From assembly GCA_018969045.1 (NCBI GenBank), contig JAGWZB010000009.1, positions 1 through 32,510 of the forward strand: a stretch of DNA of 32,510 nucleotides, given 5' to 3'. Within the stretch, counting starts at the first letter, position 1. Each line of letters starts with the position of its first letter. Below are positions 5,766-22,214 of the stretch, piece by piece. This DNA is from Planctomycetota bacterium (GTDB taxonomy: Bacteria; Planctomycetota; Planctomycetia; Pirellulales; Pirellulaceae). The translations under genes and the position numbers were made by a program. Below the pieces are notes generated by a model. The model had not been told where the DNA came from. It was given only the letters and a program-made list of their open reading frames with translations, and searched no databases.

Positions 5766-6509
5766 ATGCCGATCATCGAAGTCAGAAATCTGACGAAACA
5801 ATTCGGAGCTGGGGATTTGGCCGTCGAAGTTCTCAAAGGGGTGAACTTAAAAATCGAGCCGGGCGAGTTTGTCGCCTTGATGGGCCCTAGCGGGTCTGGA
5901 AAAAGCACCCTCATGAGTATCATCGGTGGCATCGAGCCACCCACGGGTGGTCAAGTCTTGGTCGATGGTATCGATATCGGCCAACTCGATGATGACCAGC
6001 GAACGCTGCTCAGACGCCGCAAAGTTGGGTTTATCTTTCAAGCCTTTAACTTGATCCCGACCCTCAACGCGCTTGAAAATGTGGCCCTGCCATTGCAGCT
6101 CGACGGGGTCCCCTTGAAGCAAGCTCAGGAGAGAGCTCGCTTGGCACTCGACCGCGTTGAAATGAGCCATCGCATGGACCATGTCCCTTCGAAACTCTCC
6201 GGTGGCGAGCAGCAGCGGGTTGCCATCGCTAGGGCACTTGCGATCGAACCGGTGATTTTGCTAGCCGACGAACCAACCGGTAACTTAGATTCCCGGCAAA
6301 GCGGGCGAGTGACGGAGCTTCTAAGAGATCTTGCGATGTACTCTCGGCAAACCATCGTGATGGTCACCCACGATGCTACCGTCGCACGGAGCGCCTTTCG
6401 ACTTTTGAAGTTCAAGGACGGGAATATCGAACGCGATATTGCCCAAGAGGACTTTGAAGCCAACGCCGCGGTTTTCCATGCCTCTTCGGTTCAAAACGCG
6501 ACGGGCTGA
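5766..6509 (+). CDS. ABC transporter ATP-binding protein (LolD/MacB type)
   Basis: This is the ATPase subunit of an ABC transporter of the LolD/MacB/FtsE group (247 residues). Walker A GPSGSGKST spans residues 40-48. The signature LSGGEQQRVAIARAL starts at 144, Walker B has Asp168-Glu169 in LLADEPTGNLD, and the switch His202 is in MVTHD. The PTGNLDSRQ continuation after Walker B is typical of the LolD/MacB group. The cognate FtsX-type permease begins 12 bases downstream, so the two make one transporter. Such transporters move lipoproteins, peptides or other envelope molecules by mechanotransmission; the cargo here is unknown. The tail after residue 225 is somewhat longer than in E. coli LolD. 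Confidence 0.92.
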   Translation: MPIIEVRNLTKQFGAGDLAVEVLKGVNLKIEPGEFVALMGPSGSGKSTLMSIIGGIEPPTGGQVLVDGIDIGQLDDDQRTLLRRRKVGFIFQAFNLIPTLNALENVALPLQLDGVPLKQAQERARLALDRVEMSHRMDHVPSKLSGGEQQRVAIARALAIEPVILLADEPTGNLDSRQSGRVTELLRDLAMYSRQTIVMVTHDATVARSAFRLLKFKDGNIERDIAQEDFEANAAVFHASSVQNATG

Positions 6510-6521
6510 TCGAGGAGTTTT

Positions 6522-9065
6522 ATGGCCCTTGCGAGACTTTCACTCAGGGAACTGCAAAGCCGACCCGCCAGGTCGCTGCTGACGCTCCTGAGTATCATCA
6601 TCGGAGCCGGGGCGATCGTCGCAACATACATCGCCTCCGATAGCGCAAAACTCGCTCAGCGTGCCATGGTGCAAAATGTTACCGGCAATGCTCAACTGGA
6701 AATCCAAGCCGCCGGGGGCGGTTCGTTCGATATCCGAGAAGTCCTGTTCCTCAAGGAGCTCGATGGCATCGAAGTGATTTCTCCGTCGGTCCGAAGGTAT
6801 TCGACTCTTGCAACACTCGACGCCCAAGGGAAACCGGATCGCAAACTGCGAGTCCAACTCCTGGGGGTGGATTTCGCGGAAGACAAAAAGGTTCGCAACA
6901 TCGAGCATGTCGCAGGAAAAGACCCTTTTGTAGAGGCTCCTTCCGACGAGCCTGAAGTATGGTGCGACGAAGGACTTGCCAAATCCGCAGGGCTTGCTGT
7001 GGGTCAAGAAGTCAAGTTGCTGACGAAAACCGGAAATCAATCGGCGAAAATCGCTGGGCTGCTCAAATCCAACACCGCCGCGTCGGCTTTTCAATCGGCC
7101 GTCTTGATGGCTCCGACTCGAACTATCCAAAAGTGGACTCGTTCGACCAACAAACTCGATGTCGTGCAACTGATGCTCAGCGATGAAAAACGTACTCAAG
7201 AGATCCAAACCAAGATCGCTGAGAAATTGCCTCAAGGGGTCTACGTTCGCGAACCGCCGATGCGCAGTGAACTGGCCAATGAAAGCACCGTTGCGATCCA
7301 GCGTGGGCTACTGATCGCCACGATCTTTTCGCTGGTGATGGCCGGATTCATCATTTTCAATACTTTTCAAATGAACGTTGGCGAGCGGCGAAGGCAGCTT
7401 GGAATCCTCAGGGCTATCGGCACGACTCGCAAGCAGGTTCTCTGGATGGTTCTCCGAGAAGCCGCGATCCTGGGAGTCCTAGGTAGTATACTCGGATGCT
7501 TCGTGGGGTACTTTGGGGCCGATCTGCTGAACCAATCGACAGCAACGCTGCTTGGGGTCTCGATACCGAGCTCCTCGGTCGGTTTCCTGCCGATCGCACT
7601 TGCGATCGCTTGCGGGTTTCTCGTGTCGCTGGTTGGAGCCAGCCTCCCGGCAATGACGGCTGCCAAAGCGTCACCTTCGGAAGCCATGAAGAGCGTATCG
7701 GAATCCGATTCCAAGAGTCTCTGGGCATTGTGGTTTGTGATCGGATGGATCGTCATCGCCTTGGGGTTGCTGATCCTCTGGGCGTCGACCTATCAATACA
7801 TCACGGTTCGATTAGGAACTGCGGGCATCGTGATGATCATCTTGGGAGTGATTTTCCTGCTGCCGGCATCGCTTCCGCTGTTGACCAAGATCGCCGCGGC
7901 ACCGCTGATGGCCTGGATGCCTGTTGAAGCCGCATTGGCGCGCCGCCAGGTACTACGGCATCCGGGGCGGTCCGCCATGACCATTGGAATCTTGCTGGTG
8001 GCCATGGCCATGGGGCTTGGGATGGCCTTTACCATCCTGGACAACATCCGGGATGTCCAGTTCTGGTACAAACGGACCATCGTCGGAGATTTCTTTGTGC
8101 GCGCGGCCATGCCGGACATGAGCAGTGGGCACGCAGCCGATATGCCGGAAGGCTTCCCCGAGAAAGTGGCTGCGGTCGATGGGATTTTGACCAGCGATAC
8201 CATGCGTTTTGTCAGCGCAAGGGCCGGTGAACTTAGCGTCATCGCAATCGTCAGGCAATTCAATTCGCCTACTCAAGATTACTTTGATTTGGTCCAGGGC
8301 AAAGAGGATCAAGTCATGCAGGGGATTCGCCAAGGCCAAGTCGTTTTGGGCTCGGTTCTTGCCGAGCGTGCCCAGTTGAATGTCGGTGATGAAATCGAAC
8401 TCGAAACCAACGAAGGCAAGGTCAAGGTTCCCATCGTGGGGGTGACCAACGAGTACCTTGCCGGCGGGTTGACTCTCTACATGCAAACCGATCAAGCCAA
8501 ACGCTTGCTCAGTGTCGATGGAACCGATGCGGTGATTGTCCGAAGCGATCCGAGCAAACGCGCTCAAGTCAAAGAATCTCTGCAGAAACTCGCCGATTCT
8601 GAAGGGCTCATGGTCCAGTCCTTTCAAGAGATGGCTGACATCATCGAAAACATGATCAGCGGCGTGGTCGGTGGGCTTTGGGTCGTACTAGCCCTTGGTG
8701 CATTGATTGCCGCCTTTGGACTTATCAATACACTTGCGATGAATATTCTTGAGCAGACACGAGAAATCGGAATGCTTAGAGTCGTCGCTATGACTCGCCA
8801 GCAGATCCGCAGGATGATTTTAGCCCAAGCCTTGATCATGGCCTTCATCGGAATTTTGCCAGGAGTTGTCTTGGGGGTCGGCGTTGCCGCCGCGATGAAT
8901 TTGAGTACCTTGATTGTCACAGGGCATGCCGTACGTTTTCAGTGGTACCCAGGCTTTATCGCCGGGGCTCTTTTGGCCGAAGTCCTTATCGTGATCATGG
9001 CGGCGATGTTCCCTGCCGAAAGGGCCGCTCGCTTAAACCTCGCGAAAGCCCTTCAATATGAGTGA
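6522..9065 (+). CDS. ABC transporter permease with two FtsX/MacB modules
   Basis: This permease of 847 residues contains two FtsX-type units in tandem, as in YbbP-like proteins. Unit 1 starts with a basic motif and helix (LRELQSRPARSLLTLLSIII, from residue 7), followed by a MacB-type extracytoplasmic domain to about residue 245 and three helices between about 260 and 385. Two more helices lie near 400-455. Unit 2 begins with the parallel motif ARRQVLRHPGRSAMTIGILL near residue 473, has its own periplasmic domain (about 520-700) and ends with three helices (about 715-840). The shared RELxSRPARS / RQVLRHPGRS motif shows internal duplication, so one chain may supply both halves of the membrane domain. 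The neighbouring ATPase powers it. Substrate unknown. Confidence 0.9.
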   Translation: MALARLSLRELQSRPARSLLTLLSIIIGAGAIVATYIASDSAKLAQRAMVQNVTGNAQLEIQAAGGGSFDIREVLFLKELDGIEVISPSVRRYSTLATLDAQGKPDRKLRVQLLGVDFAEDKKVRNIEHVAGKDPFVEAPSDEPEVWCDEGLAKSAGLAVGQEVKLLTKTGNQSAKIAGLLKSNTAASAFQSAVLMAPTRTIQKWTRSTNKLDVVQLMLSDEKRTQEIQTKIAEKLPQGVYVREPPMRSELANESTVAIQRGLLIATIFSLVMAGFIIFNTFQMNVGERRRQLGILRAIGTTRKQVLWMVLREAAILGVLGSILGCFVGYFGADLLNQSTATLLGVSIPSSSVGFLPIALAIACGFLVSLVGASLPAMTAAKASPSEAMKSVSESDSKSLWALWFVIGWIVIALGLLILWASTYQYITVRLGTAGIVMIILGVIFLLPASLPLLTKIAAAPLMAWMPVEAALARRQVLRHPGRSAMTIGILLVAMAMGLGMAFTILDNIRDVQFWYKRTIVGDFFVRAAMPDMSSGHAADMPEGFPEKVAAVDGILTSDTMRFVSARAGELSVIAIVRQFNSPTQDYFDLVQGKEDQVMQGIRQGQVVLGSVLAERAQLNVGDEIELETNEGKVKVPIVGVTNEYLAGGLTLYMQTDQAKRLLSVDGTDAVIVRSDPSKRAQVKESLQKLADSEGLMVQSFQEMADIIENMISGVVGGLWVVLALGALIAAFGLINTLAMNILEQTREIGMLRVVAMTRQQIRRMILAQALIMAFIGILPGVVLGVGVAAAMNLSTLIVTGHAVRFQWYPGFIAGALLAEVLIVIMAAMFPAERAARLNLAKALQYE

Positions 9066-10709: not shown

Positions 10710-11207
10710 ATGAACGGTTCCTGGCTACCACTGATTCTTGTCCTGGCTACGGCGATCCAACAGATTGTCGGGGGAGTCTCCTGTTGTTGTCTGAGCCACA
10801 GGTTGCTTGGCTCCTCGAGCGATTCTGTCCTCGCCAAAAGCCAATCGGACTTCTCAGCCCCCAGGCCTGAAAAACCTCGATGTAGCAAGTGCAAACCGAA
10901 ATCGAATCGGACAGTGGAGTCGAAATCCCAGCCTCTCCAGGGACCTGCGGTTTCCTCGGATCTTTGTGATTGCAAGCATGCGGCTCAAGCACTTGGATTC
11001 CAGAGCGAGTTGTCCAACTCCCAAAGGTCCCATCAGAAAAGCCCGCTGTTATTTGATAACGTTTTTACCCATCCACCCAGATCGCATCGAGGTGCGTTGG
11101 CTCTTGATTGCTATAGAAATTCTGCGCACGGCTTGCATTTGGGCCATCTTGTTGCGCCGTATTCCATCCAGACTCGGTTGTCTTGGTTGGGACATTGGAT
11201 GATCTGA
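10710..11207 (+). CDS. small secreted Cys/His-rich protein at a metal-efflux locus
   Basis: I do not recognise a named family. The 165-residue frame begins with a clear signal peptide (WLPLILVLATAIQQIVGG) followed by a CCC triplet at residues 25-27. After a Ser-rich stretch come two cysteine pairs, PRCSKCKPK and LCDCKH, and near the end a His cluster (HGLHLGH). Small secreted proteins with this CCC / CxxC / CxC layout are, as I recall, found beside Cus-type efflux genes in planctomycetes, which suggests periplasmic metal binding; this is inference. It stands 32 bases after the MFS gene and 138 bases before the His-rich lipoprotein. A TTGAAC / 17 / TAGTCT pair (10674-10702) lies directly upstream, but its spacing to the ATG would imply a nearly leaderless mRNA. 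If this frame is not coding, 10678-11345 is empty. Confidence 0.55.
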   Translation: MNGSWLPLILVLATAIQQIVGGVSCCCLSHRLLGSSSDSVLAKSQSDFSAPRPEKPRCSKCKPKSNRTVESKSQPLQGPAVSSDLCDCKHAAQALGFQSELSNSQRSHQKSPLLFDNVFTHPPRSHRGALALDCYRNSAHGLHLGHLVAPYSIQTRLSWLGHWMI

Positions 11208-11283: not shown

Positions 11284-11345
11284 AATATTCCTTTCAAGAC
11301 TAATTCTCCAAGATGGGCCAATGCCCTGTTCCAAAGAGGAAGATA

Positions 11346-12197
11346 ATGAAGTATTGCATCAAGTATTGTGGTGTTTTTGTCGTTTGCCTTGGGATGGCCA
11401 TGCTAAATAGCGGTTGCCAACAGAAGGCTAGTTCACCTGCTAAAGCTCCCAATAGCCAAGCCTCTCACGATCATGATCATGCCGATGAGCACGACCACGA
11501 GCATCCTCCAGGTGCGCATGGTGGGACCATCGTTCCCCTGGGGGCAGATAGCTACCATGCCGAAGCCCTTGTGGATTCCGACGGTACCCTGAGGCTCTTT
11601 ATGCTGGGCAAAGATGAATCGAGAATCCAGGAAATCGATGCTCAAACGATCAAGGCTTTCGTGAAATCCCAGGATGCACTCGAAGCCAAGAATATCGAAC
11701 TGAGTCCGCAACCCCAGGAAGGGGATAGCAACGGAAAAACATCCCAGTTCGTCGCGAAAATCCCCAGTGACAACCTTGGAAAACCCCTGCGCGTGACGAT
11801 CCCAAATCTGACCATCGCAGGGGAGCGATTCCGAATCGCTTTCGAACTCAAAGCCTCCCAAGGTCACGCTCCCATGGGTCAAGCCGCCGCCGATGGCCAG
11901 GAAGAAGCCCTTTATTTAACCCCCGGTGGGAAATACACCCAAGCGGATATCGAAGCCAACGGCAAAACCATTCCATCGATCAAATTCAAAGGGATCCGCT
12001 CCAACCACGATGATAAACCGATGCCCGGTGACAAGATCTGTCCAATCTCTAAGACCAAGGCCAACGAGCAGTTCGCTTGGGTGATCGATGGCAAGAACTA
12101 CACATTTTGCTGCCCTCCATGCATCGACGAATACGTCAAGCTCGCGAAAGAACAGCCCGAGGCGCTTCAATCCCCCGATTCCTTTGTCAAGGAGTAG
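11346..12197 (+). CDS. His-rich lipoprotein with C-terminal TRASH/YHS-like metal site
   Basis: This is a predicted exported lipoprotein of 283 residues. The signal peptide ends in LNSGC with Cys24; the -3 residue is Asn, slightly off the lipobox consensus. A His/Asp/Glu cluster (SHDHDHADEHDHEHPPGAHG) follows at about residues 42-61 and should bind metal ions. The middle (about 65-180) is a beta-rich domain I do not recognise. The C-terminus has CPIS, then 22 residues, then CCPPC, fitting the TRASH spacing C-x22-C-x3-C and resembling YHS domains (YTFCCPPC). ATG 11346 has AGAGGAAG just upstream; ATG 11313 would add 11 residues ahead of the signal peptide. The next gene, the RND adaptor, starts six bases after its stop, so it is probably part of the efflux operon as metal binder or sensor. 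Confidence 0.8.
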   Translation: MKYCIKYCGVFVVCLGMAMLNSGCQQKASSPAKAPNSQASHDHDHADEHDHEHPPGAHGGTIVPLGADSYHAEALVDSDGTLRLFMLGKDESRIQEIDAQTIKAFVKSQDALEAKNIELSPQPQEGDSNGKTSQFVAKIPSDNLGKPLRVTIPNLTIAGERFRIAFELKASQGHAPMGQAAADGQEEALYLTPGGKYTQADIEANGKTIPSIKFKGIRSNHDDKPMPGDKICPISKTKANEQFAWVIDGKNYTFCCPPCIDEYVKLAKEQPEALQSPDSFVKE

Positions 12198-12202
12198 CCA
12201 AC

Positions 12203-14458
12203 GTGCTGGTCGATACGTCTTTTCGACTGCTTCGACGATTTTTGGCCATAGGCGTAGTGCTGTGGCCAAATCCAATGGTCGCGCACGAGGGTCATAAGCC
12301 TTTGCCGACCAAGGGCGTCGAGGTTCAGACCCAAACTGGGACCTTGGTCCTGAGCGCATCGGCTCGCGATGCGATCGAAGTAAAAACAGAAGAGATCCAG
12401 CCAAGGACTCTGGATAGTTACCTCAACGCTTACGGCACCTTGACCGTCCCCTGGAACAACCATGCGCTGGTGGGTTCGTCGATCGAAGGCCGAGTCGTTT
12501 CGGTGCTAGTGATTGCCGGAGACACCGTCAAGTCGGGTCAAACCGTCGCTCAGATCGAATCTCCGGTCATCGAGCAAATGCAGCGAGATATCCGCGACTT
12601 GGTCATCTCGATTGGCCTGGATCGACAGTTGTTGCAAGGATCGCAAGAGGCCAGTAAAAGCGGCTCGATCCCTGCGGCCAGAGTGCTTGAAATTCAAACG
12701 TCACTTTTTCAAAAAGAGATCTCCTTGAAACTCGCCAAAGCCAAATGGCTTGGGCTTGGTCTAAGCTCTGAGGACTTGGAACGCATCCTTGCAAATCCGG
12801 AAGTCTACCAACGCGTTCGACTGGGGCTTCAAAGCCCCATCGATGGGACGGTCTTGCATAACGATTTGACAGTGGGAAAGTACGTCGGGCTTAAGGAACA
12901 CGTTTTAGAGCTGATCGATCTTTCTACGTTGTGGCTGAAGATTGAAATCCTCGAAAAAGACATCTCCAAGGTCCACTCAGGAGATCCAGTCGAGTTCCTT
13001 CCCAGCGGCCAGCCGAGCAACTCGATTGCAGGATCGATACGGTTGATCGAAAAAGTGCTCGATCCACGCACGCATGTCGCGACGGCATGGGTCGATCTTG
13101 ACGCCCCTGATCTCAAATCCCTCCCTTTGTTGCCAGGAATGACCGGACAAGTTCGAATCGGAAGATCGAATCCCGAACCAAAACTGTTGGTTCCCAGTTC
13201 TGCGGTAGTGCGTGATGGAGCGGAACGATTTGTTCTGGTCGAGCAGGAACGAAACGACAAAGCCTCGATTTTTAAAAAGATTCCCCTAGCGATCGGTCTT
13301 CAAAGCGGCGGATACTGCGAAGTTTCCCGAGGGGAGTTGGTTCCAGGGGATCGGGTTTTGACCCAAGGAAGCCGGCAGCTTGGGCGGCTCTTTACGCAAG
13401 GAGTCCTGCGATTGAGTCCCGAAGCGATCCAGGATATCGGGCTTAAGACTGCCATCGCAAAATCGCAGGTCGTTTCAAAGACGTTATCTCTGGACGGTGT
13501 GGTCAATCTCCCGCCTTCAAAGCTTGCTCGGGTTTCGGGGCAGCTCAGCGGTCGTATCCATCAGATTCTCATCGACCGCGGAGCCACTTTGAGCTCAGGA
13601 GATCCTATGGCACTGATCGCAAGTCCGCAGTTCCAGGACTTGCAACTCCAAGCCATCCAAGCGTCACTGCAGAAGAAATTCAGAGAATCTGTTTTAACGA
13701 ATATACGCCAAGCTGGAACGTCTATCCCTCAGCGACAAAGACTTGAGTCCGAGACCCAACTGGTATCGGCAAGGATTCAATACGAGGCTGCCTTTGAGCA
13801 GCTTCGGCTCTTGGGACTGACTGCCGAACAGATCGATGCGATTGTCGAATCCGGACGACTCATGCAGTATTACCCGGTCCTTGCTCCCATCGATGGGGTC
13901 GTCGCCGGATTCAACAAAGCGATAGGTCATGTGGTTTCAGCCGATGAGGAACTTTTCGAACTCCACGACACGAGCCAGAGGCTCATCGAGGCGTTTGTTT
14001 CCGAGAAGGATGCCCCAGCGATACGTCCAGGACAACGTCTGCGGTGCAAACCGGTCGCTCAGGATCATCGCATTTATACCGGTGTCGTGATTTCCAGCGG
14101 ACAGTCTTTGAGCAACAAAGGACAAACGCTTTCGGTATGGGCAAAAGTCGACTTCGAGCAGGATACCGTTGTATTTCACAACATGCTTTGCCGTCTAACG
14201 ATCGAGTTGCTCGATGACGATGGGCAGCAAGCAAGCACGGAGATGATGCCTGTTGTGCCCTTGTCGAGTGTTTTGCAAGAGGGGACTCAGTCGTACATTT
14301 TTGTTGCATTGACCGATGGGACTTATGAGCGTCGCAGTGTGAGTCTGGGTCGTAGCGACGATAGCCATGTGGTGGTTCTTTCAGGGTTATCGGACCGCGA
14401 GACGGTAGTGACCCAAGGGGTCTCTGCGCTTCAGACCGGTTATGCGGCGGTTCAATAG
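12203..14458 (+). CDS. tandem (double) periplasmic adaptor of a heavy-metal RND efflux system
   Basis: This is a HlyD/CusB-type membrane fusion protein, but 751 residues long instead of the usual 380-500. It holds two complete adaptor units. Unit 1 has lipoyl half-motifs SIEGRVVSVLVIAGDTVKSG (about residue 92) and SPIDGTVLHNDLTVGKYV, with a barrel and membrane-proximal region to about 410. Unit 2 repeats them as QLSGRIHQILIDRGATLSSG (about 446) and APIDGVVAGFNKAIGHVV, ending with VPLSSVLQEG and a closing VTQGVSALQTGYAA. The offset is about 354 residues. The N-terminus is a signal peptide (RRFLAIGVVLWPNPMVA) followed by AHEGHKP. GTG 12203 is chosen because AGGAG sits eight bases upstream; earlier in-frame starts lie inside the preceding gene. 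The RND pump gene follows directly. Confidence 0.9.
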   Translation: MLVDTSFRLLRRFLAIGVVLWPNPMVAHEGHKPLPTKGVEVQTQTGTLVLSASARDAIEVKTEEIQPRTLDSYLNAYGTLTVPWNNHALVGSSIEGRVVSVLVIAGDTVKSGQTVAQIESPVIEQMQRDIRDLVISIGLDRQLLQGSQEASKSGSIPAARVLEIQTSLFQKEISLKLAKAKWLGLGLSSEDLERILANPEVYQRVRLGLQSPIDGTVLHNDLTVGKYVGLKEHVLELIDLSTLWLKIEILEKDISKVHSGDPVEFLPSGQPSNSIAGSIRLIEKVLDPRTHVATAWVDLDAPDLKSLPLLPGMTGQVRIGRSNPEPKLLVPSSAVVRDGAERFVLVEQERNDKASIFKKIPLAIGLQSGGYCEVSRGELVPGDRVLTQGSRQLGRLFTQGVLRLSPEAIQDIGLKTAIAKSQVVSKTLSLDGVVNLPPSKLARVSGQLSGRIHQILIDRGATLSSGDPMALIASPQFQDLQLQAIQASLQKKFRESVLTNIRQAGTSIPQRQRLESETQLVSARIQYEAAFEQLRLLGLTAEQIDAIVESGRLMQYYPVLAPIDGVVAGFNKAIGHVVSADEELFELHDTSQRLIEAFVSEKDAPAIRPGQRLRCKPVAQDHRIYTGVVISSGQSLSNKGQTLSVWAKVDFEQDTVVFHNMLCRLTIELLDDDGQQASTEMMPVVPLSSVLQEGTQSYIFVALTDGTYERRSVSLGRSDDSHVVVLSGLSDRETVVTQGVSALQTGYAAVQ

Positions 14459-14477
14459 AGGGGACCCAAGGAATCGT

Positions 14478-17400
14478 ATGTTCGACTCAATCATTCGCCT
14501 TTCGCTACAGCATCGACCACTGGTCCTTTTCATCGCAATGTTTTGTGCATGTGCAGGAGTCTGGGAGCTTTCAGGAATCCCTGTCGATGTGTTTCCGGAT
14601 TTGAATCGTCCTACGGTGACGATCATGACCGAATCGCCTGGGCTTGCGCCCGAGGAAGTCGAGTTGCTTGTCACCAGGCCGTTGGAGTACTCGCTCAATG
14701 GTTTGACGGGGGTCGAGCGTATTCGGAGCGCCTCGGGGATTGGGCTCTCGATCGTTTGGGTCGAGTTCGGTTGGGGGACCGATATCTACCGAGACAGGCA
14801 AATCGTTCAGGAAAAGCTTGCCATAGCTCGGGAGCGGATCGCTACGGGTGCCAATCCTACGATCGCGCCGATCTCTTCGATCATGGGCGAAATCATGCTT
14901 TTGGGGATCCGCCCATCGCTTGCCAAGGACCAGGAGGATCCTCAGTTGCAGATGGCAATGCGTACGTTTGGAGAATTTACGCTTCGAAATCGGCTTATGG
15001 CCATCCAAGGTGTTTCGCAAGTGACTGTCATGGGTGGTGTGCTCAAGCAGTATCAAGTCCTGACCTCTCCGGAGCGGCTTGCCTCTCAGAACATTACCTT
15101 AGCCCAACTCAGTGAAGCGATTCAGAAAGCCAACGTGCTAGCTGGGGGTGGGGTCATGGTCAGAGACACCCAGGAGTCGATCTTGCGGATCAGTGGGCAA
15201 TCTCTTTCGCTTTCGGACATCGAGAGCACACCCATTTTGTGGCGCGAGCAGCGACCTGTTTTGGTTCGTGAAGTTGCAGACGTACAATTCGCAGGACCGA
15301 TCCGTCGAGGAGACGGAGGTGTTCGTGTCAAGAACCTCCAAGACGGGAGTGTCCAAGGAGGCCAAGGGGTGATCTTGGCCGTGCAAAAACAACCGGGGGT
15401 CGACACCATCAAACTCGATCGCCAGATTCAACTTGCGCTCGATGGATTGCAGAGCGAGCTACCCGGTTCGATGACGCTTGAGCGTCGATTGTTTCAGCAA
15501 GCCAATTTCATCGAAGCGGCCGTTTCGAATGTGTCCGAAGCGGTTCAGGATGGAGCGATTTGGGTCGTGGTGATTCTGTTTTTATTTCTGTGGAACTTCC
15601 GAGTCAGTGTGTGTTCACTGATCGCCATGCCGTTATCGATCTTGATGACATTTCTGGTGTTCCGAGCTATGGGAGCGACGATCAACACGATGAGTTTGGG
15701 TGGTATTGCCGTAGCGATCGGAGACTTGGTCGACGACTCGATCGTCGATGTCGAGAACATCTTTCGCAGGCTCAAAGAGAACCGTCAGCTTGGGGTCTTG
15801 CAGCGCAAGCCATCCTTGGAGGTCGTCTATCAAGCGTCCAGGGAGGTCCGCAGTTCGATCGTCTATGCAACGATGATCGTGGTTCTTGTGGTGGTACCAC
15901 TTTTTGGACTGACGGGTCTTGAGGGGAGAATGTTCGCTCCACTGGGAGTCTCTTACATTGTATCCCTGCTTTGTTCCCTGCTGGTTTCGCTGACCGTTAC
16001 CCCGGTCCTTGCATCGTATCTGTTGCCCAGCGCAGGTTTTTTGTCGGTACAAAACGAAACGCGGTTGGTCCGTGTGCTTAAGTCCCTGGCGCGCCGTGTA
16101 CTTCACTGGACGTTGGATCACACCGGTTGGGTTTTTGCAGCGACAGGTTTAGGAGTCCTTTTGTCTCTTTGCGCAGTGGCTTGGATGGGTGGATCATTCC
16201 TTCCTGAGTTCAACGAAGGCAGCTATACCGTCAACTTGCAATGCTCTCCAGGGACGAGTTTGCAAGAGAGTCAAAGGATTGCACGGCGTTGCGAAGAAAT
16301 GTTGCTGGAGATACCCCAAGTCATATCGATATCCAGGAGGACTGGTCGGGCCGAATTGGACGAGCATGCCGAAGGAGTCCATTCCTCGGAGATCGATGTT
16401 CAGACACACCTGAGCAGGGCATCCAAACCAGGATTGGCTTGGGCGATGATCAGACGCATTCCGGGTTTTCAGCACTTTGGGTATGAGTCCACGGCGCTAG
16501 ATCGTCTGAACATCATGGAGGAAATACGCGAGAAAGTAACCACGATTCCAGGGGTTCAAGTCAATATTGGTCAGCCGATTTCCCATCGGCTCGATCACAT
16601 CATGTCTGGGGTTCGCGCTCAGATCGCGATCAAAGCCTTTGGGGAGGATCTGCGTCAATTGCGAGAGTTAAGCCATGACATCCTCGATGCGATCGGCGAT
16701 GTTCCAGGGGTGGTTGATTTGCAAGCCGAGCCGCAGGTTGAAGTATCGCAGATCAGGCTGCAGATCAAGCGGCAGGAGGCGGCCCGTTACGGATTAACTC
16801 CCGGTGACTTGGCCGACTTGATGCAGACGGCTTATAAGGGAAAGGTGGTTTCTCAAGTGCTCGATGGGCCGCAGTACCATGATCTGGTGGTTTGGTACGA
16901 CCAGGAATCCAGGAGTTCGCCTCAGAGGATTCAATCGACGATCATCGACACCCCGTCGGGCAGACGTGTGACGTTAGGACAAGTAGCTGAGGTGATCGAC
17001 ACGACCGGGCCGAGCACGATCAACCGTGAGAATGTTCAGCGTCGGATTGTCGTGCAGTGCAATGTGCAAGGTCGTGATTTAGCAAGTGTCGTACGAGAGA
17101 TCGAAGGTCGCCTGGAACCGATCCAGCAGCGCATGGCGGGACTGGAGGGCAACTATTATTTGCAGATGGCAGGGCAATACGAAGCACAGCAGCAGGCCAA
17201 CGCTCGATTGCTCCTGTTTGGGTGCATGGCACTTGTGGCGATTTTGTTGTTGCTGGTGCAATGCTTGAAGTCTTGGTCGGCGGCGATCCAGATATTGGTC
17301 AATGTGCCGCTGGCGGCGATTGGAGCCGTGGCGATGCTCTTGTGGTTCCAGAGGCCTGATGCGTCGGTCTTCGAGGGATTACCTTGGTGGGCATGGCCTA

Positions 17401-17792
17401 GGGCTTGGGTGCAATCGATCACGTTATCGGTAGCGCACTGGGTGGGTTTCATCACGCTTGTTGGGATCGTCAGTCGCAATGGGATTTTGATGATATCCCA
17501 CTATCAGCATTTGATGGAGCATGAGGGAGAGACCTTTAGCAAAGAGATGATTATCCGGGGCAGTTTAGAGCGGCTTACACCGGTCATGATGACGGCCTTT
17601 ACGAGTTTTGTTGGGTTGTTGCCATTGCTCATGGGGGCAGGAGAGACGGGCAAGGAGATCCTTCATCCGCTTGCGGTCGTCGTTTTTGGGGGGATGCTAT
17701 CGACGACGCTATTGGATCAGTTGGTCACACCTGCGTTGTACTGGCGTTTTGGTCCGAGGTCGTTGGAACACCAACAGGGCACTGACCGCTAA
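14478..17792 (+). CDS. CusA/CzcA-family heavy-metal RND efflux pump
   Basis: This is the inner-membrane proton-driven pump of a tripartite efflux system (1104 residues). The N-terminus shows the RND helix and porter start (GIPVDVFPDLNRPTVTIMTE), then the SPGLAPEEVE and TRPLEYSLNG motifs of the heavy-metal branch. The fourth-helix motif GGIAVAIGDLVDDSIVDVEN gives the acidic residues expected for proton relay, and VGLLPLLMGAGETGKEILHP lies near the end. The motif in helix 4 is neither the classic CzcA (DFG..DGA.VEN) nor CusA (VDAAIVMIEN) version, so the metal cannot be named. ATG 14478 has AAGGA five bases upstream; ATG 14442 would overlap the adaptor gene by 17 bases. No outer-membrane factor gene follows. 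Confidence 0.92.
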   Translation: MFDSIIRLSLQHRPLVLFIAMFCACAGVWELSGIPVDVFPDLNRPTVTIMTESPGLAPEEVELLVTRPLEYSLNGLTGVERIRSASGIGLSIVWVEFGWGTDIYRDRQIVQEKLAIARERIATGANPTIAPISSIMGEIMLLGIRPSLAKDQEDPQLQMAMRTFGEFTLRNRLMAIQGVSQVTVMGGVLKQYQVLTSPERLASQNITLAQLSEAIQKANVLAGGGVMVRDTQESILRISGQSLSLSDIESTPILWREQRPVLVREVADVQFAGPIRRGDGGVRVKNLQDGSVQGGQGVILAVQKQPGVDTIKLDRQIQLALDGLQSELPGSMTLERRLFQQANFIEAAVSNVSEAVQDGAIWVVVILFLFLWNFRVSVCSLIAMPLSILMTFLVFRAMGATINTMSLGGIAVAIGDLVDDSIVDVENIFRRLKENRQLGVLQRKPSLEVVYQASREVRSSIVYATMIVVLVVVPLFGLTGLEGRMFAPLGVSYIVSLLCSLLVSLTVTPVLASYLLPSAGFLSVQNETRLVRVLKSLARRVLHWTLDHTGWVFAATGLGVLLSLCAVAWMGGSFLPEFNEGSYTVNLQCSPGTSLQESQRIARRCEEMLLEIPQVISISRRTGRAELDEHAEGVHSSEIDVQTHLSRASKPGLAWAMIRRIPGFQHFGYESTALDRLNIMEEIREKVTTIPGVQVNIGQPISHRLDHIMSGVRAQIAIKAFGEDLRQLRELSHDILDAIGDVPGVVDLQAEPQVEVSQIRLQIKRQEAARYGLTPGDLADLMQTAYKGKVVSQVLDGPQYHDLVVWYDQESRSSPQRIQSTIIDTPSGRRVTLGQVAEVIDTTGPSTINRENVQRRIVVQCNVQGRDLASVVREIEGRLEPIQQRMAGLEGNYYLQMAGQYEAQQQANARLLLFGCMALVAILLLLVQCLKSWSAAIQILVNVPLAAIGAVAMLLWFQRPDASVFEGLPWWAWPRAWVQSITLSVAHWVGFITLVGIVSRNGILMISHYQHLMEHEGETFSKEMIIRGSLERLTPVMMTAFTSFVGLLPLLMGAGETGKEILHPLAVVVFGGMLSTTLLDQLVTPALYWRFGPRSLEHQQGTDR

Positions 17793-20029: not shown

Positions 20030-20038
20030 TGCTACGAT
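20030..20038 (+). promoter_or_regulatory. candidate extended -10 promoter for the FHA-sigma54 activator
   Basis: TGCTACGAT is an extended -10 element (TG, one base, then TACGAT). TTAAAA at 20012-20017 is the only -35-like word, at short spacing. A start point near 20045 would give a leader of about 50 bases to ATG 20094 and would exclude ATG 20037 as the translation start. Confidence 0.4.
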
Positions 20039-20093
20039 GGACACGGGGGAATACCCAAACCGCTCCCCATTAGTTTATTTCAGCCTTTGCGCG

Positions 20094-22214
20094 ATGCAAC
20101 CAAACAACCAACCCGCCTACCTGATTATCCGCCAAGGAAACCGCTGGACCGACGTTTTCCGGCTGGAAAACAACCAATCCTTGGTCGTCGGGAGGGCCTC
20201 TTCCAACGAAATCCCCGTTGCTGACGAACGAGCCAGTCGCCGGCACGCCGAGATCTTTTTCAAGGACGGCGAATGGATCCTAAGGGATCTAGGGTCCCGA
20301 AATGGTACCCTCATCGACGGATCCAAGATCGACGCTCCCAGGGCTCTTTCCCCAGGAAATCAAATAACGGTTGCATCATGCCGGATGACTTTCGTGCATT
20401 CGCTGACCGATTATGTGCCCCCGGTTAACGATTCTGAGGGTGCTGACGATTCTCCAGGCTCGCAGACCCAAGGAGACCTTCCCCCCTCGATCACCCATCG
20501 CAGATCCAAAGCCTCGATGCTTGAGTCTCAAGAGATCGATCCCCTGGTACCGGATCCATCCGTAGAACTCGCATCTTCGATGCAATCCTCATCGAAGGAC
20601 CGATCCCAGAGATTCGATCCACCGGTCCAGGCAGCGGCTGTCGAAGTTTTGCAACTTGCTTTCGAGCTTGCAAAATCGACATCCATACCGGAAGCTTGCG
20701 AATTGGCTCTTGGAAAACTCTTAACGGTCACAGGTTGCCAAGCTGGTGGAGTGATCAAACTGGATGCTCCCACCAAAGAGTCCAAACCGGCTCGCGGGAA
20801 ATCACCAGATTCAAGCCGTTTGAATTTAACGGTTTTGGCAGCCTCTGAACTCGCTGGTAAGGCTTACCATCCTATCTCCGAGACACTTGTTCAGAATCTA
20901 CTGCGTGACCGCTCAGCGATTCTTGCACGTAATGTCACTTCAGATCCAAACTTCATCGGGGACCCTCAACAAAGCGGTAGTCATGTTCTTTCAACGACCT
21001 CGCTGATCGCAGCCCCCATCCAACTCGATGGCACTCTCTTTGGCGTGTTGCACCTGTACTCGCGCATCGGTCGACAGGACCTTACCCCCAACGACCTTGA
21101 AGTGGCCTTGGCAATCGCGGAAGTCTTGTCGGTTTCGATCAGCAACCTTTCAAGGCAACAAAACCTGGAGTCCAAGCTGCAATCGACTAGCTCTCGACTC
21201 GAGCAGCTCGAACAGAAACTAGGTCATGGGGATTGGATCGGAGAGTCCGAATCGATGAAGCTTCTGCGTGCGCAAGTTCGCCGCGTGGCACCGACTCAGG
21301 CGACGGTGTTGATCCGAGGCGAGAGTGGAACCGGCAAGGAACTCGTCGCTAGAGCCGTTCACGAGCATAGCCCAAGAGCCTCCGGTCCGTTTGTGACGAT
21401 CAACTGTGCCGCCCTCTCGCCAACACTCCTAGAGAGCGAACTGTTTGGACACGAAAAAGGTGCCTTCACCGGCGCGACAGACCGAAAAATTGGCAAGTTC
21501 GAACTGGCCGATGGGGGAACCATGATGCTCGATGAACTCGGTGAAATGAGCATGGAAATCCAGGCCAAATTTCTTCGAGTCCTCGAAGGCCACCCGTTCG
21601 AAAGACTCGGGAGCAATAAACCGATTCGCTCAAACGTCCGCATCGTCGCGGCCACCAACCGCGATTTGGAACAAGCTGTCCAGGAGGGACGTTTCCGTTC
21701 CGATCTGTATTTTCGTTTAAGGGTGATCGAATTAAAAATTCCACCGCTTCGTGAACGCTCCGACGACATCCTCCAACTCGCCGAGTTCTTTCTCAGGCAA
21801 TTCAGAAACAACTCTGGTTATGGTCCCACGCAGTTTTCTCCCCGTGCCCGAAAAGCGATGCTCGCTTACCATTGGCCCGGCAACGTGCGTGAACTAAAGA
21901 ACTCGGTCGAGCGAGCTCATGTTTTGGCTACTGGCGATATCGCAGAGCCTGAAGACTTGGCACTCTCCCATTTGCCAATCCCAAATCTCCCTTCCCCAGC
22001 TATGCAAGCTCAAGAGACCCAAGAGACCGGCTCGGAGTCTGAGTCCCTTGTTGAGCCGGCTTACACGGAACGAACCCTCGAAGAGGTCGAACTCGATCAT
22101 ATCGCAAAGACGCTCAAATACACCCAAGGACAGAAAAATCGAGCCGCGAGTATTCTAGGTATCGAGCGCTCGACCCTGGACCGAAAACTGAAACGTTTGC
22201 AAGACGGCGTCTAA
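20094..22214 (+). CDS. FHA-GAF-sigma54 transcriptional activator (Fis-type HTH)
   Basis: This is a bacterial enhancer-binding protein of 706 residues that activates RNA polymerase with sigma-54. An N-terminal FHA domain (about 10-95; [27 protein letters not shown]) should bind a phosphothreonine protein. A linker leads to a GAF domain (about 180-345). The AAA+ domain (about 375-610) has Walker A GESGTGKE (409-416), GAFTGA (456-461, the sigma-54 contact loop) and Walker B Asp480-Glu481. The C-terminus carries a Fis-type helix-turn-helix ([20 protein letters not shown]). There is no receiver domain, so input probably comes from a Ser/Thr kinase and a small-molecule or redox signal at GAF. ATG 20094 is favoured over ATG 20037 because FHA strands follow at once and an extended -10 covers 20037. 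Its stop codon overlaps that of the M28 gene. Confidence 0.92.

Follow-up and report, generated by a model that had tools for sequence, protein, structure and literature searches.

A single gene of a planctomycete of the family Pirellulaceae encodes two complete, mutually related RND periplasmic adaptor units, arranged head to tail. It occupies positions 12203 to 14458 on the forward strand of the window, meaning the whole analysed stretch of 32,510 nucleotides, and its product is best read as a natural covalent adaptor dimer for one CzcA/CusA-like pump clade of Planctomycetota, with three chains per pump and a fixed position for each unit, a reading to which we assign a probability of roughly 0.7. 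In ordinary RND pumps one adaptor protein occupies both of the non-equivalent adaptor positions, so that a mutation in it affects the two together. In the planctomycete chain, each position seems to have acquired a half of its own in the course of evolution, and one of these halves seems to have been trimmed in a sister form. As each half could be mutated or deleted separately while the number of chains is set by the covalent linkage, the role of each adaptor position would become directly testable.

The adaptor of 751 residues starts at a GTG codon, with AAGGAG 8 bases 5' of it (12189-12194). Residues 1-26 (12203..12280) form a probable signal peptide without a lipobox cysteine, with a cleavage site predicted from the sequence. 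Directly behind it lies a near-invariant arm, HEGHxPLPxxG (residues 28-38), of which H28, G30, H31, P35 and G38 are present in all 63 non-redundant tandems and E29 in 98% of them. The N-unit follows at residues 45-397 (12335..13393) with a helical hairpin at residues 121-184 (12563..12754), and the C-unit spans residues 398-751 (13394..14455) with its hairpin at residues 475-536 (13625..13810), all on the forward strand. The earlier note had deduced this layout from whole-adaptor motifs recurring at a constant offset of about 354 residues. The six motifs that it quoted are all found in the protein (at 96/450, 211/561 and 379/729) and the approximate offset is right, whereas its constancy is not, as the three pairs are 354, 350 and 350 residues apart. 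When residues 1-397 are aligned with 398-751, 84 of the 331 paired residues are identical (25%). The alignment scores 217, compared with a mean of 40.6 (SD 6.4) and a maximum of 74 in 1000 shuffles, which puts it 27 SD above that mean. Two stretches each are matched by Pfam HlyD_D23 and HlyD_3 and also by TIGR01730 (RND_mfp), whose 213 bits against a cut-off of 94.9 mark the protein as an RND periplasmic adaptor. It scores below the NCBIfam cut-offs for CzcB/NccB (TIGR00999, 162.9 versus 319.3 bits), CusB (NF007303, 67.8 versus 390) and IhpB (NF045680, 81.8 versus 450). The PDB returned ten matches by sequence, the best stretch of each lying inside one half, while an Rfam scan of the whole window gave no match.

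Structure prediction with AlphaFold2, using the chain from residue 25 together with 58 relatives (protein residue = model residue + 24), gave a model with a mean pLDDT of 88.5 and a pTM of 0.78. The chain alone is predicted to contain two of everything, rather than one barrel and one lipoyl domain: each unit of the model has the lipoyl, hairpin, barrel and membrane-proximal domains of an adaptor, the hairpin helices lying at model residues 97-128 and 134-160 in the N-unit and at 451-479 and 486-512 in the C-unit. By VIA-align, model residues 29-366 match MacA (Z 15.3, rmsd 7.1, 299 aligned), residues 13-372 match ZneB (Z 13.9, rmsd 14.6, 331 aligned) and residues 375-727 match CusB of the CusBA crystal (3ne5_C; Z 13.9, rmsd 10.4, 313 aligned). 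The N-unit also has a whole-chain match to CusB. The high rmsd values probably reflect domain hinges. The remaining VIA-align rows are lipoyl-type domains of carboxylases, and each of the best 50 Foldseek matches listed is an adaptor shorter than 400 residues, with E down to 6e-20. Thus sequence, profiles and predicted structure, together with the homologues described below, bear out the view that two complete adaptor units reside in one polypeptide.

The same layout recurs widely among close relatives. Of 60 genomes searched, that of the window among them, 25 have the full-length tandem in one stop-free frame, comprising 23 of the 27 genomes of the genus and two genomes from other families of the order (G044 and G055); a further tandem in G011 is cut by a contig end, which brings the genus total to 24 of 27. 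The three partial matches that were checked (G011:C203, G011:C333 and G012:C234) all stop at contig ends, and an open frame in G056 (2068 aa in one search, 950 aa in another) was left out. At G012:C179:17854-20115 (L227) the tandem is matched in two pieces within one 802-aa frame, which may mean an insert between or within the units. The possibility that a stop and a start codon between two adjacent adaptor genes were lost through sequencing or assembly, which the earlier note had raised against itself, has in its favour that the window comes from an assembly broken into 589 contigs, of which it is one. It has practically no chance of being right and is rejected: the stop-free layout is found in independent assemblies, among them the one-contig genome G006, 73 full-length tandems are known with the window included, the three partial matches checked stop at contig ends, and a sequencing error would not be carried by nearly the whole genus.

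Further away, the distribution becomes patchy. None of the ten genomes from other genera of the same family in the 60-genome sample carries the tandem, but in a larger sample five genomes from other genera of the family do (G555, G588, G611, G619 and G644). In the order as a whole, the tandem is present in 33 of 246 genomes, 19 of them with the full-length form, of which one is truncated at a contig start, and 14 with a short form. A search of 392 genomes of the phylum with the A1 profile covered virtually the whole tandem in 11, including the window, of which eight are from other classes. Absences in these profile searches are soft because only part of the candidates in each genome was scored: two in the A1 and A3 phylum searches, four in the order, up to 18 in the 60 genomes and up to 11 for the lipoprotein discussed below. 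A contig scan spanning bacteria and archaea of all phyla, reached through two peptide patterns only, gave no relatives with the single adaptor protein and 100 loci with alignment A1. The best 80 of these 100 were kept; all carry planctomycete titles except L091, which is titled 'bacterium' only, and together with the window they supply the 73 full-length tandems. A tblastn search against plasmids matched 682 records, and no tandem is among the 50 of these that were listed: their matches span 0.88-1.32 kb each, and therefore both halves align to one single adaptor. The plasmid and contig scans leave room for tandems outside Planctomycetota.

The short form departs from the full-length one in its C-unit. 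In these 14 tandems, one of which has an in-frame TGA, the profile match stops short at position 672-687 of 750. The 11 that were examined by domain have a whole N-unit (profile position 3 or 4 to 352 or 353), and their C-unit, with a linker in front, covers just positions 27-35 to 270-287 of 347 and is thus without the first 26-34 and the last 60-77 positions. Judged by the model of the window's protein and the comparison of units, the missing parts would correspond to the membrane-proximal domain. A pump frame lies beside all 11 short tandems, downstream in L030-L032, and therefore the membrane-proximal domain of the C-unit can evidently be lost, with that of the N-unit kept in these 11. As the sister form has apparently lost this domain from the C-unit only, the two positions would not be equivalent. 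The loci concerned are L030-L033, L207, L208, L210, L211 and L214-L216; for L030-L033, in which a start was chosen, the proteins measure about 690-720 aa. The short-form profile A3 found no further recognisable short tandem in the 392 genomes of the phylum.

To reconstruct the origin of the tandem, its units were placed in trees together with single adaptors. The careful tree holds 84 units from 23 full-length tandems (17 of 31 thinned tandems and six of eight far tandems, with L041 and L044 omitted), 10 short tandems and 18 of 28 single adaptors; a quick tree holds 110 units from 41 tandems (31 of 62 after identity thinning, plus L035-L044) and all 28 singles. L117 was left out of the quick tree, which was the earlier of the two, and L099, L100, L117 and L124 were left out of alignment A2, in which 59 of 63 rows were kept, the window included. 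In the 84-unit tree, a branch with support 100/99 sets all 33 N-units apart, and the 33 C-units form a set with two single adaptors, L139 and L081 (98/89). Far, short and full-length tandems branch largely in parallel among the N-units and the C-units, the far-tandem groups being weakly supported (97/70 and 90/69, respectively). The AU test did not reject a single clade of C-units (p 0.43) or a single clade of all tandem units (p 0.238). The quick tree agrees on the N-units (99), and its C-units need three changes, one of them forced. With all N-units in one clade and a single C-unit clade allowed by the data, a single internal duplication before these planctomycete lineages split, with the units distinct ever since, is likely and is the simplest reading of the trees; more broadly, the history of the units points to an old internal duplication or to a fusion of close paralogues. 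Had two unlike adaptors of different pumps been fused instead, as is described for the protein DSY0927 discussed below, this could account for the grouping of L139 and L081 with the C-units, which might then descend from a single adaptor of their own. We consider this unlikely, since these two singles sit on a long branch (1.66), the other 16 of the 18 singles fall outside all tandem units (100/99), and one clade of all tandem units is compatible with the data. The pumps next to L139:20300-21817 and L081:2908-4404 (minus strand) share 39-43% identity with that of the window, and these two adaptors are possibly the closest single relatives.

Whether the two units have become specialised is a separate question. 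The comparison of units drew on 60 of the 63 non-redundant tandems (L117, L099 and L124 left out). W84, H219, H233, E347 and H391 are conserved in the N-unit and not at the matching positions of the C-unit, H588, D719 and D720 are conserved in the C-unit only, and 19 positions are strongly conserved in both. Engineered AcrA tandems reportedly repeat one identical unit. According to PMC4446572, fused AcrA is functional (Xu et al. 2011, as cited there), and this result fits deep-interpenetration models equally well. Together with the 19 shared positions, it lends something to the idea that the fusion merely raises the local concentration of adaptor, with interchangeable units that can take either position without specialisation. 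That idea is distinctly unlikely in view of the N- and C-units staying separate throughout the tree, the different residues conserved in each, and the loss of what appears to be the membrane-proximal domain from the C-unit only. The same three observations lend indirect support to the suggestion in the earlier note that the halves differ and that each may be specialised.

The partner of the tandem adaptor is a CusA/CzcA-like RND pump encoded at 14442..17792 on the forward strand (start at 14442 or 14478; Pfam ACR_tran, 742.8 bits), for which TIGR00914 is the best-scoring NCBIfam family with 694.2 bits, narrowly below its cut-off of 701.45. A pump starts at most 300 bases downstream of the tandem in 65 of the 73 loci with room, a lower bound because the greedy gene caller can miss or mis-start genes; it gave no tandem frame in L088, L116, L121 and L128. 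The other eight loci with room have no pump within 300 bases, with L082 and L093 having one further on. Identity to the window's pump is 55-100% for pumps next to full-length tandems of the window's form and 49-58% for pumps next to short and far tandems (over 234-517 aligned residues), as against 26-43% for the 11 remaining pumps of these loci. The tandem pumps include four, at 58-64% identity, that were moved there from the other pumps: those of L115, L079 and L068 lie directly behind tandems, and that of L128 belongs to a tandem locus without a kept frame. On these sequence comparisons, the tandem adaptor travels with one clade of CzcA-like pumps. No outer-membrane factor is encoded in the window, and none of the nine OEP hits in the genome is on its contig (C189). 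OEP-like frames occur in the flanks of 12 of 81 loci (the window and the best 80 of 100); a putative outer-membrane factor is encoded directly behind the pump in L117 (4e-44) and also, as a weak match, in L094 (1e-9). The likely partner is an outer-membrane channel shared from elsewhere in the genome.

By analogy with the 3:6:3 architecture in print, it is plausible that three tandem chains assemble on the trimeric pump, so that the usual six adaptor units would form the funnel. Of the two non-equivalent positions, one would then always go to an N-unit and the other to a C-unit. The N-unit would act as the obligatory pump-docking unit, while the C-unit, whose membrane-proximal domain is dispensable in the sister form, would complete the hexagonal ring and also the contacts to the outer-membrane channel. 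In the periplasm, the adjacent lipoprotein would probably capture a soft metal ion and pass it to the adaptor or the pump. Taken to its full extent, this becomes a tentative proposal of hard-wired asymmetry: position I might always be held by an N-unit, responsible for pump docking and perhaps for metal handling through the arm HEGHxPLP and residues H219, H233, E347 and H391, and position II always by a C-unit that closes the ring, grips the channel and has dropped its pump contact in one form. Only three membrane-proximal domains per pump would be needed instead of the usual six, and the lipoprotein might be a metallochaperone whose evolution went along with that of the complete form. The fusion of two units as such, which is old and has been conserved among relatives, offers a natural test of how labour is divided between unequal adaptor positions.

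Adaptor dimers as units of assembly have precedents. The 3:(3+3):3 view of tripartite assembly has been reviewed (PMC13328181), and the 3:6:3 assembly, TriA/TriB and the functional AcrA tandems described in PMC4446572, PMC4338810 and PMC13328181 speak for adaptor dimers as units; the planctomycete tandem adds natural support for the dimer as the building block of a 3:6:3 assembly in a heavy-metal-type pump. In TriABC-OpmH of Pseudomonas aeruginosa, two unlike adaptors likewise serve one RND pump with divided roles, TriA and TriB being 36% identical and both needed (PMC4338810), but these are two proteins, whereas the window's adaptor is one chain in a single frame with units 25% identical, beside a CzcA/CusA-like pump. 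DSY0927 of Desulfitobacterium hafniense is named as a fused dimeric adaptor in PMC4446572, and PMC4338810 describes it as an ABC-type, Gram-positive fusion of two different MFPs with an N-terminal half lacking the coiled coil. It resembles the window's adaptor in having two adaptor units in one natural polypeptide, which the authors of these papers took to support dimers as functional units; by this description it is set apart from the window's adaptor, which has an RND partner (the ACR_tran neighbour), hairpins in both units, and units of one type. The engineered AcrA tandem is likewise a working covalent adaptor dimer, but it is man-made, while the planctomycete one is natural, old and asymmetric. 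As DSY0927 and the AcrA tandems are already in print, the novelty of a fused adaptor pair implied by the earlier note was overstated; for planctomycetes, a search of open-access papers brought up no tandem adaptor belonging to an RND pump. CusB and ZneB/CzcB, which the window's units match as whole chains and by sequence and whose partner pump is of the same CusA/CzcA-like type, are single-unit chains and differ in this from the two-unit adaptor.

Upstream of the adaptor, at 11313..12197 on the forward strand, lies a gene for a lipoprotein with a lipobox (LNSGC), a His-rich arm (HxHxxGxHGG), a YHxE motif, a FetP/P19-like β-sandwich and a C-terminal TRASH/YHS-like cysteine cluster (CP...FCCPPC), a putative metal-binding partner. 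Its histidines and cysteines are conserved among family members 48-77% identical to it (alignment A4). Pfam scores of the family stay under the cut-offs (TRASH 18.6-20.7 versus 27 bits, YHS 16.2-18.7 versus 30.3), and the sequence gave no useful match among solved structures. The predicted structure (pLDDT 86, pTM 0.49) resembles FetP, P19, FtrA, HftA and Tp34 with Z 8.1-9.8 over 104-107 residues, which is middling by the tool's yardstick; a DUF4426 protein is also among the fold matches (Z 9.7), and the entry titles of several matches name copper, iron or nickel. A soft metal is therefore a likely substrate, given these fold matches and titles and the weak TRASH/YHS matches. The lipoprotein lies upstream of the tandem in 63 of 71 loci with room, in 34 of them at a distance of at most 400 bases. 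In the order it is present in 22 of 246 genomes: all 19 with the full-length tandem, one of the 14 with the short form (G472, on another contig) and two of the 213 with neither (G594 and, as a partial match, G332), in both of which a second search also shows no tandem. It is further present in both same-class genomes with a full-length tandem and in none of the eight far-tandem genomes, so that it is not part of every tandem system. As the full-length and short forms each make up one clade, this co-occurrence represents few independent events. From sequence and model, the lipoprotein is a probable metal-binding partner of the full-length tandem form.

Among the other neighbours in the window, positions 20037-22214 encode a sigma-54 activator with FHA and GAF domains that has no known link to the pump. 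Positions 5766-9065 encode an ABC ATPase and, behind it, a two-fold FtsX/MacB-PCD permease (LolCE/ADOP-like); some close relatives have similarly sized frames upstream. A 165-aa open reading frame at 10710-11207, without a Pfam or NCBIfam match, is seen again ahead of the lipoprotein gene in several Pirellula-type loci.
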